From an uncultured Prevotellaceae bacterium (lineage in GTDB: Bacteria; Bacteroidota; Bacteroidia; Bacteroidales; Muribaculaceae): a stretch of DNA of 32,442 nt. Numbering within the stretch: the first letter of the stretch is position 1; each line of letters begins with the position of its first letter. The notes beneath the pieces were generated by a model. That model had not been told where the DNA came from. It saw nothing but the letters and a program-made list of their open reading frames with translations, and did not search any database. A program made the position numbers and the translations under genes. Shown one piece after another: positions 18,734 through 29,400 of the stretch. Location of the stretch: the NCBI GenBank assembly GCA_945983195.1, contig CAMFSS010000002.1:1-32442 (forward strand), in the 5' to 3' direction.

Positions 18734-21016
18734 TCAATTCAGTGTAAATGTGGCTGTCTGCACATTGCGGCTGTCGCCACCCACCATCACCTGGAAGTCG
18801 CCCGGCTCACACACCAGCTCTATGTTGCTGTTGTAGAACTTCAGCAAGTCGGCGGTAATCTCAAATGTCACGTCGCGGCTCTCGCCCTTCTTCAGCGTCA
18901 CGCGCTCGAAGCCCTTAAGCTCCTTCACGGGGCGCGAAATGCTGCCCACCATGTCGCGAATGTAGAGCTGCACCACCTCAGTGCCGTCGTAGTTGCCGGT
19001 GTTGGTCACCTTCACTGTGGCTGTAATCTTGCCGCTCTCGTCCATTGTGGTGTTGTCGAGCGTAAGGTCACCATAGGTGAATGTAGTGTACGACAGTCCG
19101 TAGCCAAACGGATAGAGAGGGTCGTTGTCCACGTCGAGATAGTTGCTGCAGAACTTCGAGAACCACTTCTCAGCCGGACGGCCGCTGTTCACGTCATTTT
19201 CCTAGAGCCGCAGCCGTCCCACCGCAGTCGCGAACGATTCCGTGAGCTTGCCCGAAGGAACCTTGTCGCCAAAGAGCACGTCGCAGATGGCATCGGCAGC
19301 CTCCGAGCCGCCAAACCACACCTGGAGTATTGCCGGGAGATTCTCGTTCTCCCAGTTCATCACTGTGGCACGACCTGCAAAGTTGAGCATCACTATGGGC
19401 TTGCCGGTCTTCTTCAGTGCCTTCAAGAGGTCGAGCTGTGCATCGGGCAGGTCGAGATTGCTGCGCGAGCTGCACTCGCCGCTGAACTCCGACGACTCAC
19501 CGCCGGCAAACACTATCACATCGGCTCGCTGTGCCACGCTCAGTGCCTCGGCACGCATTGCCTCGGCTGAACGCGGGTCGCGCATCTCACGACCGAACAT
19601 TGTGGCATTTGCCTCAAGCGTTGCATCGTAGCACAAGTTGCTTCCCTTGGCATAGAGCACCTCAGCCTTGCCGGCTACGGCATCTTTCATGCCCTCAAGC
19701 AGCGACTTGTAGCGATCGCTCACGGCTGCCACGCTCCATGTGCCCGGCATATTCGCCTTGGTGTCGGCAAGCGGGCCGATAAGGGCAATGCAACCCTTTC
19801 GCTGAAGCGGAAGCAGATTGCCCTCGTTCTTCAGGAGCACAAATGTCTCAGCTGCGATTTCACGTGCCACTGCACGGTTCTCTGCCGTGAACACCTCCTG
19901 CTTGGGACGCTCCACATTGCAGTATTTATACGGATCGTCAAACAAGCCGAGCTTGTATTTTGCCTCAAGTATGCGGCGGCAAGCCTTGTTGATATCCTCC
20001 TCAGTGACCTTGCCCTCCTGGAGCGACTTCTCAAGTGTGCCCATGAAGCCGTCGGCTACCATGTCCATATCCGTTCCGGCTTTCAGAGCGAGTGCCGACA
20101 CTTGCTGAAGGTCGCCCATGCCGTGGGCAATCATCTCGGAGATGGCGGTGAAGTCGGTTACGACGAAGCCGTTGAAGCCCCACATGTCGCGGAGCACATC
20201 GGTCATAAGCCACTTGTTGCCGGTTGCCGGAATGCCGTCAACCACATTGAACGACGACATAACCGACCCTGCACCTGCCTCTACGGCAGCCTTGTAAGGC
20301 TCAAAGTAGCCGTTGAACATCGTCACGCGGCTCATGTCCACTGTGTTGTAGTCACGGCCTGCCTCAGGTGCTCCATAGAGTGCGAAATGCTTCACGCAAG
20401 CCATGATTGTGGCTGAATCCTGAAGGTTGTCACCCTGATAGCCCTTCACCATGGCACGTGCAATGGCTGCACCGAGGAATGGGTCTTCGCCCGAGCCTTC
20501 GCTCTGGCGGCCCCAGCGCGGTTCACGGCAAATGTCTACCATCGGGCTGAAAGTCCAGCATATACCGTCGGCACTCGCCTCACGGGCGGCAATCTGTGCC
20601 GACTTCTCGATTGCTTCCATATCCCAACTGCACGAGAGCGCAAGTGGAATGGGGAAAACAGTTTCATAGCCGTGAATCACGTCCATTCCGAAGATAAGCG
20701 GAATGTGAAGGCGGCTCTCCTCCACTGCCAAGCGCTGCACCTCGCGGATTTTCTCCACACCTTTCAGGTTGAAGAGTCCACCCACCTCGCCGGCCTTGAT
20801 TTTCTCGGCGATATTGCTGCTTTTGGCCTGTCCGGTTACAATGTCACCCGTAACGGGAAGGTTGAGCTGACCTATCTTCTCATGAAGCGTCATCTGCCCC
20901 ATCAGGTCATCAACGAAGCGGTCCATTTCGGCATCACCGCTGCCACCATTGCTTTGGCACGCTGTGAGAGCAGTTGCAGCCACAACGGCTGCCATCATAA
21001 ATTTATTCAATTTCAT
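18734..21016 (-). pseudogene. GH3 beta-glucosidase-like lipoprotein interrupted by an in-frame TAG at 19202-19204
   Basis: ORFs 19202..21016 (604 aa) and 18734..19192 (152 aa) are in the same frame. GH3 features: GFVVTDFTAISEMIAHG (nucleophile region), VKHF, GESSEFSGECSSRSNLDLP, then after the stop SNYLDVDNDPLYPFGYGLSYTTF and a C-terminal Fn3-like domain. Confidence 0.8.
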
Positions 21017-22611: not shown

Positions 22612-24735
22612 TTACTGTTTTAATATTTTCGACATCTCCGAACAGCCGGTTTCGCCCAGTGCCTCGATTGCAAAATAGTAGTCGGTGCCCAGATCGAGAC
22701 CGCGGAGGTCGTACTCACACTCGCCGTTCACGGTGATGCAGTGGTAGAGCTTGTCGGGGGCGATGCCATAGCGTATGTTGTAGCCGTAGGCACGCTCCGA
22801 GGGCTTCCACGTAATCATGCAGTTGCGCATGTCCTTCTTGTCGCGTACCACCTTGAAGCCCTTCACCGCAGTGGGTGCCTCACCTTCGGCAATGCCAAAC
22901 ACGCGCAGGTCGCTCAGGCAGAAGTTGCCCGAGGGCATGTGCAGGTTCTCCACCTTCAGGTAGCGCGCACGCAGCGGCTGGCGCAGCTCCACATAGTCGT
23001 GTGGCACATCGCGGTCGTTGTTGCTCTTGTCCACCACAAGTTCCCATTCGCTGCCGTCGCTTGAGGCATAGATGCGATACTGGTGGTAGAGGTCGTTGGC
23101 GCGGTTGTGCTGCACGGTCATGAAGTCGTAGTAGTTAAGCTGGATTGCACGAATCTCCTTCACCGCATCAAGGTCAATCTTCACCCATTCGCCGGGTTTG
23201 CCGGTCTTGGCAGCCCAGATGGTGCGTATGTTCTCGTCGGTGATGTTGCGCGGGGCGAGTGAGTCGTCCTCGGCAGTGCTCGATGCCTCCACTTTCTTGC
23301 CATAAGAGAGGAGCATCCAGCCTGTGAAGCGGTCGGTGCCGGCAATGGTGCGCTCAGAGTTCCAGCAAGGATAGTCACCAAATGACGTGTTGCAGTACAT
23401 CACGCCGTCGGCATCGAATCCCACAGGATAAAGCCCTATGCGACGCTCAAACTTATACTTCAGCGAGAGCATGCAAGTGCCCACATGCCAGTAGTTGCCC
23501 TTTGCATCGCACCAAGTGCCGCCGTGCCCCACACCCTGCACAAATCCTCCGGGCTTGTAGCTCATCGGGTTGTGCTTCTGATAGGCGAAGGGACCGAGCG
23601 GGCTGTCGCTCACATACACGCCGTCGGCATACACCTTGAATTCCGTTCCAGGTGCGCCATATTGCAGATAGTATTTGCCGTCATGCTTGGTCATGTAGGC
23701 ACCCTCGGTGAAGGGCGCGAGCGTAACCTCATCGTCGTTGTTCATGCCGAAGCGTTCCCAGCCGTGCTGCTTGGGGTGCAGTGCCACCACATCGTGAATC
23801 TTGCTGATGGGGCGGAAGTCGTCGCGGCTCACCTGCACGGCTTTCAGCGGATATTCGTTGCTTGAACCGTAATATTCGTAGAGCTTGCCGTCGTCGTCGA
23901 GGAAGAGACACGGGTCCCAAGTGGGAATGGTGTTGCGCTCCACCACGCGGCGGAAACGTCCGCTGAATGGCTCGGTGGTGTACCAGATGGGCAGTCCCTC
24001 GTAGGTAGAGCCGGTGTAGAAGAGCGTGTCGCCGCACACGAATGCTGCAGGGGCACACTGGTCATCGTCGGTAGGCTTGCGCTGGAACGATGCCGGGGCA
24101 AATTCCCAGTCACTCATGTTTCGGGAGTAGTGGAAACCACCCTGATTGGTCGAACAGAGCATATTGGTGACCTTGTAGTAGAGTCCCATAGGGTCAGCCG
24201 ACGAGCGGAACGAACCGTGCGGGCGCACATTGTTGTTGTAAGGCTCGTAGTTGTAGCTGATGTTCATCGGATTGCAGTAGGTGTGCGTGCCGCAGTCGTC
24301 GGGGTCAAACCAGCGTGTAGCCACAGCCTTGGTACGCTGCACCGCCTTGCCCGTGTAGGGCGTAAGCGTGACATTCACCTCACGCTGCTCCACTTCGCGA
24401 ATCACGCTGCCGAACTCCTTGCCGGGGTAGTACACATAGATGTGGCGGTCGCCGTCGGTACACTTGAGCGTGTAGCGGCCCGCAGCATCGGTGTTGCAGT
24501 GCACAGGCGAGCTGAAGAACATCACTGTGGCTCCTTCGAGAGGCTTACCCTGCTCATCGGTGACAGTGCCGCTTATGTGATATTCCTTGTGTACGGGGAT
24601 GTAGTAGTCGCTCACTTGTCCTTTCACCACCTTTATTGAGTCGCCCTGAGCATTTGCCGCAATGGAGGGTGCTGCCATAATGCTGCACACTGCTGCCAGT
24701 TTCAGCATTAAGCCTGATATTGTTTTTTGTAGCAT
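22612..24735 (-). CDS. GH43-like family glycosidase with N-terminal CarboxypepD_reg-like domain and C-terminal discoidin (F5/8C)-like and Fn3-like modules
   Basis: Start revised to MLQKTISGLMLKLAAVCSIMAAPSIAANAQ. ISGTVTDEQGKPLEGATVMFFSSPVHCNTDAAGRYTLKC (CarboxypepD_reg); catalytic region with TWDPCLFLDDDGKLYEYYGSS, VTLAPFTEGAYMTKHDGKYYLQYGAPGTEF, GVGHGGTWCDAKGNYWH; AIQLNYYDFMTVQHNRANDLYHQYRIYASSDGSEWELVVDKSNND (discoidin-like). Confidence 0.75.
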   Translation of the reverse strand: MLQKTISGLMLKLAAVCSIMAAPSIAANAQGDSIKVVKGQVSDYYIPVHKEYHISGTVTDEQGKPLEGATVMFFSSPVHCNTDAAGRYTLKCTDGDRHIYVYYPGKEFGSVIREVEQREVNVTLTPYTGKAVQRTKAVATRWFDPDDCGTHTYCNPMNISYNYEPYNNNVRPHGSFRSSADPMGLYYKVTNMLCSTNQGGFHYSRNMSDWEFAPASFQRKPTDDDQCAPAAFVCGDTLFYTGSTYEGLPIWYTTEPFSGRFRRVVERNTIPTWDPCLFLDDDGKLYEYYGSSNEYPLKAVQVSRDDFRPISKIHDVVALHPKQHGWERFGMNNDDEVTLAPFTEGAYMTKHDGKYYLQYGAPGTEFKVYADGVYVSDSPLGPFAYQKHNPMSYKPGGFVQGVGHGGTWCDAKGNYWHVGTCMLSLKYKFERRIGLYPVGFDADGVMYCNTSFGDYPCWNSERTIAGTDRFTGWMLLSYGKKVEASSTAEDDSLAPRNITDENIRTIWAAKTGKPGEWVKIDLDAVKEIRAIQLNYYDFMTVQHNRANDLYHQYRIYASSDGSEWELVVDKSNNDRDVPHDYVELRQPLRARYLKVENLHMPSGNFCLSDLRVFGIAEGEAPTAVKGFKVVRDKKDMRNCMITWKPSERAYGYNIRYGIAPDKLYHCITVNGECEYDLRGLDLGTDYYFAIEALGETGCSEMSKILKQ

Positions 24736-24877
24736 AAGCAAATGATTCGGTTTCGTTTTTTTTAGGTGTATTTTTATGGAAAAGTGCGCCGTAACGTCAG
24801 GCAAAATGCCTTGGTATCGGCGCACCTTCAAATTAAAACCAATCTGTGTTGTATAGTGTTAATACCTAATGGGAATG

Positions 24878-26338
24878 TTATTCGTCCTTAGGCTCGTTGG
24901 CAAGGCTTGGAATGTTGCTGCTCTGCTCGAATGGGATAGGATAGTAGGTCTTTGAAGCGTCCCAACCCTTGAGGGTAGAAGCTGCCTTTCCGCGACGGAT
25001 AAGGTCGTTGTAACGCTCTCCCCACTCGCAGCACAGCTCCATGCGGCGCTCGTCGAGAATGTTGTCGATAGTCACGGTGCTGAGGGTAGGCATTCCGGCA
25101 CGTGTGCGCACGAGGTTGAACGGAGTCACTGCATCGCCGCCCACTTCAAGGCAAGCCTCGGCGTTCATCAGCAGTACGTCGGCATAGCGGAGGATGCGCA
25201 CGTTGTTGTTTGAGCCATATTTTGTGCGGCCTTCGGTGAGCTGGTGGCTCGGAGTGTAAGCCTTTCCGTTCCAGCAGTCGGTCTGAGTGGGGTTCTGGAG
25301 CGGGCGGATTACGTCGCCGCTCGGAGTAGTGCTTCCTGCAAGGAGGAACGATGTAGTGGCACGGATACCCTCACCGCGGGCTGCAGCCCAGTCGCGGAAC
25401 TCCTTGTAGAGTCCGATGAAGCCCCAGCCTGAGATGTTGCCGTTGTTGGCGGGTCCCTGGAATACAAACCACTGGTCGGCATCTACCATGTCGCCCGAGC
25501 CATTGCCGAAGTCGGTGCACTGGCACTCGAAGAGCGACTCGTTGCAGAGCTTGCCGGGTATCTTGAAGAGGTTGTAATAGTCGTCGTAGAGTTCAAACTT
25601 TTTGCTGCTGATGATTTTGTCGGTAAGTTCCTTTACCTTTGCATAGTTGCCCATGTTGAGATATACCTTAGCTGCGAGAGCCATTGCCGAGTAGGCAGTC
25701 ACGGCACCGAAGTGGTTGCTCTCGTTGGGGCGGATAAGCGGCATGTTGGTGTAGCCATACTCAAGGTCCTCAAGCATATAGCGGTTCACGGCATCGATAG
25801 TCGAGCGGGTCATGTCGGTCTGGCTGTTAGAGCGCAGGATAGTCACGGCACCGAAGCCCTGCACGAGGCGATAGTAGGCGTAGGCGCGGAGGAATCGTAC
25901 TTCACCGCAGTAGGTGTAGTAGTTCTTCATGTCGGCATCGCTCTTGATGTTCTCGGCATAGCTGTCGAGCGATTCAAGTGCGGCATTAGCCACTTTAATC
26001 ATACCATAATACTGGTTCCACATCTCGTTCAAGCCCCAGAAGGAGTTGTCGTAGTTGTAGTTGCCCATATCTACCAGAGTAGCCTGGTCATCAACACGTC
26101 CCGACCACACATCGTCGTCGCGGATGATAGAGAGAGGCCAGATAACCCAGTGCATGCCACCGGTGCGCAGCTTTGCATACACACCCGATACAGGCATATA
26201 CATATTGTCTAAGTTGGTGAAATCCACGCTGTTTTCCGGGACGCTGTTCTCCGGCTCTTTGTCGAGGAAGTCGCACGATGTAGTTGCAAGCAGCATTGCC
26301 GGCAACGCATATAATAATGCTTTTTTAAGAATATTCAT
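24878..26338 (-). CDS. SusD/RagB-family nutrient-binding outer-membrane lipoprotein
   Basis: Start revised to MNILKKALLYALPAMLLATTSCDFLDKEPENSV; EVRFLRAYAYYRLVQGFGAVTILR, RILRYADVLLMNAEACLEVGGDAVTPFNLVRTRAGMPTL, DERRMELCCEWGERYNDLIRRGKA are SusD hallmarks. Confidence 0.93.
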   Translation of the reverse strand: MNILKKALLYALPAMLLATTSCDFLDKEPENSVPENSVDFTNLDNMYMPVSGVYAKLRTGGMHWVIWPLSIIRDDDVWSGRVDDQATLVDMGNYNYDNSFWGLNEMWNQYYGMIKVANAALESLDSYAENIKSDADMKNYYTYCGEVRFLRAYAYYRLVQGFGAVTILRSNSQTDMTRSTIDAVNRYMLEDLEYGYTNMPLIRPNESNHFGAVTAYSAMALAAKVYLNMGNYAKVKELTDKIISSKKFELYDDYYNLFKIPGKLCNESLFECQCTDFGNGSGDMVDADQWFVFQGPANNGNISGWGFIGLYKEFRDWAAARGEGIRATTSFLLAGSTTPSGDVIRPLQNPTQTDCWNGKAYTPSHQLTEGRTKYGSNNNVRILRYADVLLMNAEACLEVGGDAVTPFNLVRTRAGMPTLSTVTIDNILDERRMELCCEWGERYNDLIRRGKAASTLKGWDASKTYYPIPFEQSSNIPSLANEPKDE

Positions 26339-26439
26339 TGTTCTCAATTTTTTTTGTTGTTTTTTACTTTTATATTTTGAGGTTCTTCAGCAAGAAGTCA
26401 AGCCACTATGGTAGTACCGCATCTTGCATCTTGCCTCAT

Positions 26440-29400
26440 TTAGAAATCGATTTGCACACCGAGTGTGTAGGTCGAAGTCAATGGATAAACCTCTACGTCC
26501 CAGCCTTCTGCATCGCTAAGCTCAGGAGTGAAGGCGTTGGCTTTGAAAGTGGTGAATGGACGGTCGGCGGTTACACTCACGCGGATACCCGGCAAAGTGT
26601 AGTTGCCCATCTTGATGTTGCGGAAGTTGTAGGCAAGTGTGATGTTCTGGATGCGGAAGTAGTCGGCGCTCTCCACGAAGTAGGAGTTCACTTTCTGGTC
26701 GCTCACGTTCCAGCCCTTCACGAGTGCTGCAGCCGACGGGTGCTCGTTGGTTGAGCCTTCGCCTGTCCAGCGGTTAGTGTATTGAGCCTCGTCGAAGTTG
26801 AAGTTTGATTGAGAGTAGCGCAAAGCACGCTTGCGGTTATACATCTGTGCGCCTGCCTGGCCGTAGGTGGTAAGTTCAAAGTCGAGGTTCTTCCAGCTCA
26901 AGCCGAAGTTGAGTCCGTAGGTAAGGTTAGGAATGTAGGCACCGAGAGTCTGGCGGTCGTTGCCGTCGATTACACCATCCTTGTTCACGTCTTCATACTT
27001 GAAGTCGCCCGGTACGAGACCGTTAGCCACAGCTACGGGGTCGGCTGCACACTCAGCATCGTTCTGATATACGCCCACCACCTTGAAGCCGTAGAAAGAG
27101 TTCATTTCCTCGCCTACCATGTTAATGGTCTTGCCGCCCTTCACGTAGGCGGTACCGCCAAGGTCTTTCACCTCGTTCTTGAGGAATGAGAGGTTGAGAC
27201 CGATGCTATACTTGAAGTCGTTGCCGATGCGGTCGCTCCAGTTAGCCGAAATATCGAAACCGGTGTTGAGGATTTCACCGTAGTTGCCGGCAAGCACATC
27301 GTTGCTGAAGGGGAGGCGCGGTGAAATCACGGCACGCTTGGTCATGCGGTAATACCAGTCGAGGTCCACGTTCAAGCGGTTATTGAGGGTCGAGAAGTTC
27401 ACACCCACGTTGGTTTCATCTACAAGCTCCCACTTGAGGTAGCTGAAGTAAGATGTATTCTGGAAGCCCGGGATTGTGGTGTTGCCGAATACGCCCGATG
27501 CACTGTTACCTGTGGAAATCGAAGCGAAGCCGTCGCTTGCAGCCACGTGGTCGTTACCGAGGCGGCCCCAGCTTGCACGCAGTTTCAAGTAGTCAAGCAC
27601 TTTCTGGTCCTGCATGAACGACTCTTGGCTCATTACCCATGATGCACCTACCGATGGGAAGGAGCCCCACTTCTCCTGATACTTCGAAGAACCGTCGGCA
27701 CGCATTGTGAACATGAGGAGGTACTTGCCTGCGTAGTCGTAGTTCAAGCGGGCGAAGTACGACTGTCCGCGGTAGCAGTATCCGTCGTCGCCGAGTGTCA
27801 CGCCGTCGGCATCACCCTGGCTCAGATACAAGTATTCATCCTTGCCTTCGGGTACGTTCGAAGCCTTGCCCCACATGTAGCGGTATTGCTGCTGGCGCAT
27901 AGAGTAGCCGAGCATTGCACCCACCTTGTGGTCGCCGAAGCGGTCGTTGTAGGTAAGGGTGTTATCCCAGATGTAGTTGTAGTAGTTTGTAGTGGATTTT
28001 GTGAGTTCAGAAACACTCTTCTGCTGCCAACTGCTCACATAGTAGGGCTTGATGTAGGTGCGTCCGCGAGTTCCTGTGTAATCATAGCTGTAGCTTGTCT
28101 TGAAATTCAGTTTTTCGGGGAGTATGTTGAATTGTGCGTAGAAGTTGCTGAGCACTTGGTAGTTCTCGTTGCGGCTGTTGTTGTATTGGGCAGTTGCAAC
28201 GGGGTTGTAGAAGTTGCTTGTGAAGCCCACGCTTGCAGGAGAAGCGAATTTCTCGGGTGTAGCCTCTACATTGTTTTCGTCATACACCGGATAGATAGAA
28301 GGAGCGTTGAAAGCCTCTTTCCATGCCGAGTTGTTCGGGAGAATCTGTGTAGAGTTGCTGAATACGCCGTTGAATCCCACCTTCAGCCAGCTTGTTGCAT
28401 CGTAGTCAACAGCTGCGCGGAAGTTCATGCGCTTGTAGTTGTTGTCGGCGTCCATGATACCATCCTGGTAGAGGTAGCTCACGCCGAGAGAATAGACAGC
28501 CTTCTCCGAGCCGCCGCTGATGCCGAGGCTGTGGTTGGTGATTACAGCCTTGCGGAGCAATTCGTTGTACCAGTCGGTGTTGGCACCGTAGGTCCAGTTG
28601 TGGAAATCTGCGTCGGCGTAGCTGCCTCCGTAGCGGTCGATTGAAGCCTTCATTGTCGATACGTAGGCGTCATAGTTGGCTTCGAGAAGCATTGTGGCAT
28701 ACTGCTGCGAGTTTGCCATCTTCAGCACGTTGGTAGCCGACTGGACTCCCACATAACCGTTGTAGGTGATTTTGGCGTTCTGGTTGCGCTTTCCTTTCTT
28801 GGTGGTGATGATTACCACACCATTTGCTGCGCGTACACCATAGATGGCTGCTGCCGATGCGTCCTTGAGCACCGACATTTCCTGAATGTCGCTGTTGTTG
28901 AGGAAGTTGATGTCGTCGTAGAACATACCATCAACCACATAGAGCGGTGAGCTGTTGGTGAATGAGCCTGTACCGCGGATTGATACGCGTGGACCCGAAC
29001 CCGGAGTTCCGCTGTTCACCACATTCACACCTGCCACTTTTCCCTGCATGGCAGCCATAGGCGAAGTTGCCGGAACTGAGAGAAGCTCCTCTCCCTTCAC
29101 CACTGTGATAGGCGAGGTAAGGTCCTTGGCTTTGGCTGCACCATAACCGATTACTACCACCTCATCGAGCTTCTGGAGGTCGTCCTCAAGTGTTACGTTG
29201 ATTGTTGTGTCGGTAGCTTTGACCTCTTTGGTCTTCATACCGATGTAAGAGAATGTAATTACCGCATTGTCGGGAACATTTTTCAGTTCATAGTTTCCGT
29301 CGAAGTCGGTCACTGCTCCGGTGGTTGTGCCGTTCACTTGCACACTCGCACCAATTACGGGTTGGTTGCTCTGGTCGAGAACCACTCCTATTACTGTCTT

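Follow-up and report, generated by a model that had tools for sequence, protein, structure and literature searches.

A frame-keeping substitution patch with an in-frame stop in a GH3 beta-glucosidase gene is probably a consensus error of a metagenome-assembled genome

The window (the whole stretch of DNA analysed, 32,442 nucleotides) carries a GH3 beta-glucosidase gene that is interrupted by a dense patch of substitutions with an in-frame TAG. With a probability of roughly 85%, this patch is not real biology but an error in the consensus of a draft metagenome-assembled genome. The verdict rests on two findings: similar patches recur in unrelated genes elsewhere in the assembly, and one of them removes a catalytic residue from an essential enzyme. 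In that case, the GH3 gene is most likely intact in the organism, where it would encode an ordinary beta-glucosidase.

The window corresponds to contig C2 in a 2.48-Mb metagenome-assembled genome (MAG), which is distributed over 390 contigs and 76.6% complete. The GH3 gene (BglX-like) lies at 18734-21016 on the minus strand and comprises 760 codons plus the terminal stop, counted through the in-frame TAG. Pfam domains PF00933 and PF01915 precede the TAG and PF14310 follows it, giving the order GH3 N-terminal, GH3 C-terminal and Fn3-like, and the NCBIfam profile PRK15098 (BglX) matches the frame on both sides of the stop (16-606 and 614-764). Apart from the TAG, which sits within a short run of unusual residues, the frame is clean. 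Neighbouring genes encode a Glycoamylase-domain protein (PF10091), a GH43-domain protein, SusD and SusC, and the neighbourhood looks like a glycan-utilisation locus. A separate feature of this locus is that SusD and most of SusC (window positions 24500-28316) are about 98.6% identical to a sister-species MAG, whereas the flanking DNA is about 87% identical; this step may stem from DNA exchanged recently between the species or from cross-binning of the contig.

The minus-strand reading SFATAVGRLRL*ENDVNSGRP (asterisk, stop) given in the initial annotation was confirmed, with the TAG codon at 19204-19202, corresponding to residue 605. The motif FPxxVGQxPxYYNHxNTGRP is not found in the GH3 frame, as residues 596, 601, 603, 605, 606, 608 and 611 are replaced. 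The alignment with relatives passes through this segment without gaps, as had been described, and the motif segment is indeed hit, but the patch extends beyond the motif that was listed: it covers residues 593-611 (about E593 to S611) at 19184-19240 on the minus strand, 57 bases in which 10 of 19 residues are changed and no indel occurs, with C623 as a possible outlier. The initial annotation also held that conserved residues were hit and variable ones spared. Conserved residues are replaced, but the variable positions E593, T597 and V609 are changed too. The C-to-G changes noted earlier account for half of the base changes in altered codons on the gene strand (6 of 12), and eight of the twelve lead to G.

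The nearest relatives of the GH3 protein are encoded by MAGs of the same genus, L015 (94% amino acid identity, taken over the first 604 residues) and L016 (87%), and both have FPKAVGQLPLYYN-LNTGRP at the patch site. Compared with L015, 10 of the 19 codons at 593-611 alter the amino acid, while other windows of 19 codons contain at most 5 such changes (mean 0.88); when the 47 amino acid changes were placed at random, a cluster this dense appeared in 1 of 100,000 trials. Among 281 alignment columns that are at least 90% conserved in 80 homologs, the GH3 protein deviates at 10, seven of them within residues 596-611.

RLRL/END occurs as a native variant in none of the 80 homologs. Likewise, A596, R601, R603, E606, D608 or a stop at 605 were found in none of them, and 75 of 79 homologs carry Tyr at residue 605. 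That the GH3 protein has a native variant of the motif, or that its stop is read through or recoded to give a functional product, would agree with the conservation of the downstream frame, but the absence of the patch residues and of the stop from these homologs makes it very improbable. Readthrough in particular was rejected because the changes flank the TAG and are not limited to it.

Both sides of the patch are conserved. Upstream, 571 codons show 25 amino acid changes against 156 synonymous differences relative to L015, and the downstream portion with the Fn3-like domain (18734-19183, minus strand) has 12 amino acid changes in 149 codons and 36 synonymous differences. A neutral pseudogene was thus rejected, as substitutions and indels are not spread along the gene and the frame continues intact, which bears out the earlier view that the pattern does not resemble neutral decay. 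The gene is therefore not in decay; its patch has either arisen extremely recently or is not real. A genuine cluster of mutations that this strain acquired very recently, through error-prone repair of damaged single-stranded DNA, and that inactivated the gene before further decay could set in, would explain the kept frame and the unchanged conservation past the stop, and a lesion in one strand could yield a C>G bias on one strand. This explanation is nevertheless unlikely in view of the same type of patch in RecQ and at the metal-binding Asp of the only D-Ala-D-Ala ligase found (see below), a combination that a living lineage could scarcely sustain.

Templated replacement or microconversion was a further origin considered for the patch, with the template at a different locus or on the complementary strand of an inverted repeat close by. 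Part of the patch lies within an imperfect inverted repeat at 19176-19219 on the minus strand, whose arms (19176-19190 and 19205-19219) are complementary at 12 of 15 positions, and a dense cluster beside an inverted repeat resembles the short template-switch mutations of quasi-palindromes. However, no second copy of the 24-mer at the core of the patch was present in the same genome with up to three mismatches, and a BLAST search with 66 bases against five genomes from the genus (this one and four congeners) gave no sizeable match. The donor search suggested in the initial annotation thus lends no support to a templated origin. Unlike in quasi-palindrome mutations, the changed bases do not follow from the sequence of the opposite arm: the partner arm accounts for at most two of them, the change of CCG to CGG brings no gain in complementarity, and the altered loop bases (TAG GAA, and GAC) have no template in the repeat. 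The fold is also not unusually stable (z = 0.66). Templating by the inverted repeat was rejected because the mate arm does not supply the changed bases and the fold is ordinary, and templated replacement in general is considered highly improbable. Diversity-generating retroelements likewise cause localised nonsynonymous change in one gene, but the changes on the GH3 coding strand occur mostly at C and not at A, and no template repeat was found.

Comparable patches occur elsewhere in the assembly. About 0.84 Mb of this genome was compared with about 0.92 Mb of a sister-species genome, and the number of patches from the approximately 76,000 aligned codons is a lower bound; some dissimilar stretches, among them L205, L207 and L129 versus L238, look like ordinary divergence and were left out of the count. 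Other patches that keep the reading frame were found in unrelated genes, encoding RecQ, a GHL10-like protein and a D-Ala-D-Ala ligase, the last with two patches. Similar patches in an S66 peptidase and in SusC are less certain; their polarity, like that of the GHL10-like patch, is presumed, and Pfam scores of the S66 peptidase do not differ between the two genomes. In RecQ (L177, contig C30, 4547-6727), which is 95% identical to the sister copy, NIPGVGAGKAK is replaced by NIP*LAAGTAK, placing an in-frame TGA and adjacent changes, at 6.2-6.4 kb of the contig, in the helix-hairpin-helix motif of the HRDC domain; the HRDC profile score is 48.2 bits here and 58.6 bits in the sister copy. In a further protein, 85.6% identical between the genomes and presumably GHL10-like, FGVC*ENFRRVLQKVK stands where the sister copy has FANSQDNIRRDLEKAR, again with an in-frame stop.

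The R-x-D Asp of D-Ala-D-Ala ligases binds metal and is catalytic. In the ligase of this genome (L174, contig C27, 2424-3635), one of the two substitution patches located at 2.5-3.0 kb of the contig replaces this metal-binding Asp by Gly, so that RVG occupies the position where solved ligases carry R-x-D. The C-domain scores 127.1 bits here against 153.5 bits in the sister species, while the N-domain is unchanged (111.5 and 111.1 bits). The score drops in the HRDC domain and in the ligase C-domain identify the copy of this genome as the odd one. This is the only full-strength D-Ala-D-Ala ligase found in the genome, with 128.9 bits compared with 150-181 bits in four congeners, although a second ligase gene could lie in the missing part of the incomplete (76.6%) genome. 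It is unlikely that a living cell would carry the loss of the metal-binding Asp in the only ligase found.

The artefact option raised in the initial annotation is therefore supported by patches in other genes, including one at a catalytic residue of the only ligase found. Local hypermutation, also raised there, is still conceivable, but it would need to have hit essential functions too. That the lineage undergoes real, strand-biased and patch-like hypermutation across many genes, essential ones included, is hardly credible, and we know of no bacterial process that produces such patches genome-wide.

A bias toward A>T, C>G or any base to G on one strand is visible, to varying degree, in six of the seven patches, the bias of the RecQ patch not being clear. 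In altered codons, the ratio of A>T plus C>G to the reverse changes is 6:1 in GH3, 9:0 in the first ligase patch and 6:2 in the GHL10-like gene. It reaches 12:0 in the S66 peptidase, where nine A>T and three C>G make up 12 of 14 changes, and 15:2, on the opposite strand, in SusC, but these two patches were chosen partly for their strand bias. The first ligase patch contains nine A>T and no T>A changes, and in the second, seven of nine changes lead to G. When directions were randomly flipped in a genome-wide scan for strand asymmetry, the observed maximum (11) was reached in 5 of 200 runs and a value of 10 in 31 of 200. Genome-wide strand bias by itself is thus only weakly significant.

In two-colour sequencing chemistry, A shares one dye with C and another with T, and G is dark; overcalling of G upon signal drop-out has been reported, and average error profiles show no clear dye signature (PMC8002175). 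Loss of the dye common to A and C would cause A to be read as T and C as G, and loss of all signal would give G. The one-strand bias hints at such a loss of signal in reads from two-colour Illumina chemistry but does not prove it. The patches resemble the known G overcalling in their changes to G, or of A>T together with C>G, on one strand, but published profiles describe scattered errors, while here patches of several bases are kept in the consensus. Under the consensus-error reading, a run of wrong base calls would arise in one or very few reads, as two-colour Illumina reads lose signal in some cycles and C turns into G, A into T or any base into G. An assembler keeping a low-coverage path would then let the bad run enter the contig where coverage is thin. 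MEGAHIT is known to rescue some k-mers of coverage 1 (PMC8021871).

Consensus errors at low coverage in metagenome assemblies share with the present case a fragmented draft and in-frame stops beside clusters of substitutions in conserved genes. If the patches are artefacts, MAGs that represent species may hold dense runs of errors that keep the frame and can pass for pseudogenes, recoding or a loss of catalysis; simple filters for stop codons and frameshifts would overlook patches without a stop, such as those of the ligase.

Two minor observations were made in the same assembly. A CarB-like gene (L128, contig C1, near 9466) has a single in-frame TAA near its end, where a relative has Tyr. On contig C27 (L174), a gene contains 13 consecutive A at about 1430-1490, where the relative has mixed sequence; this run may be a further error patch or a genuine lysine-rich linker.
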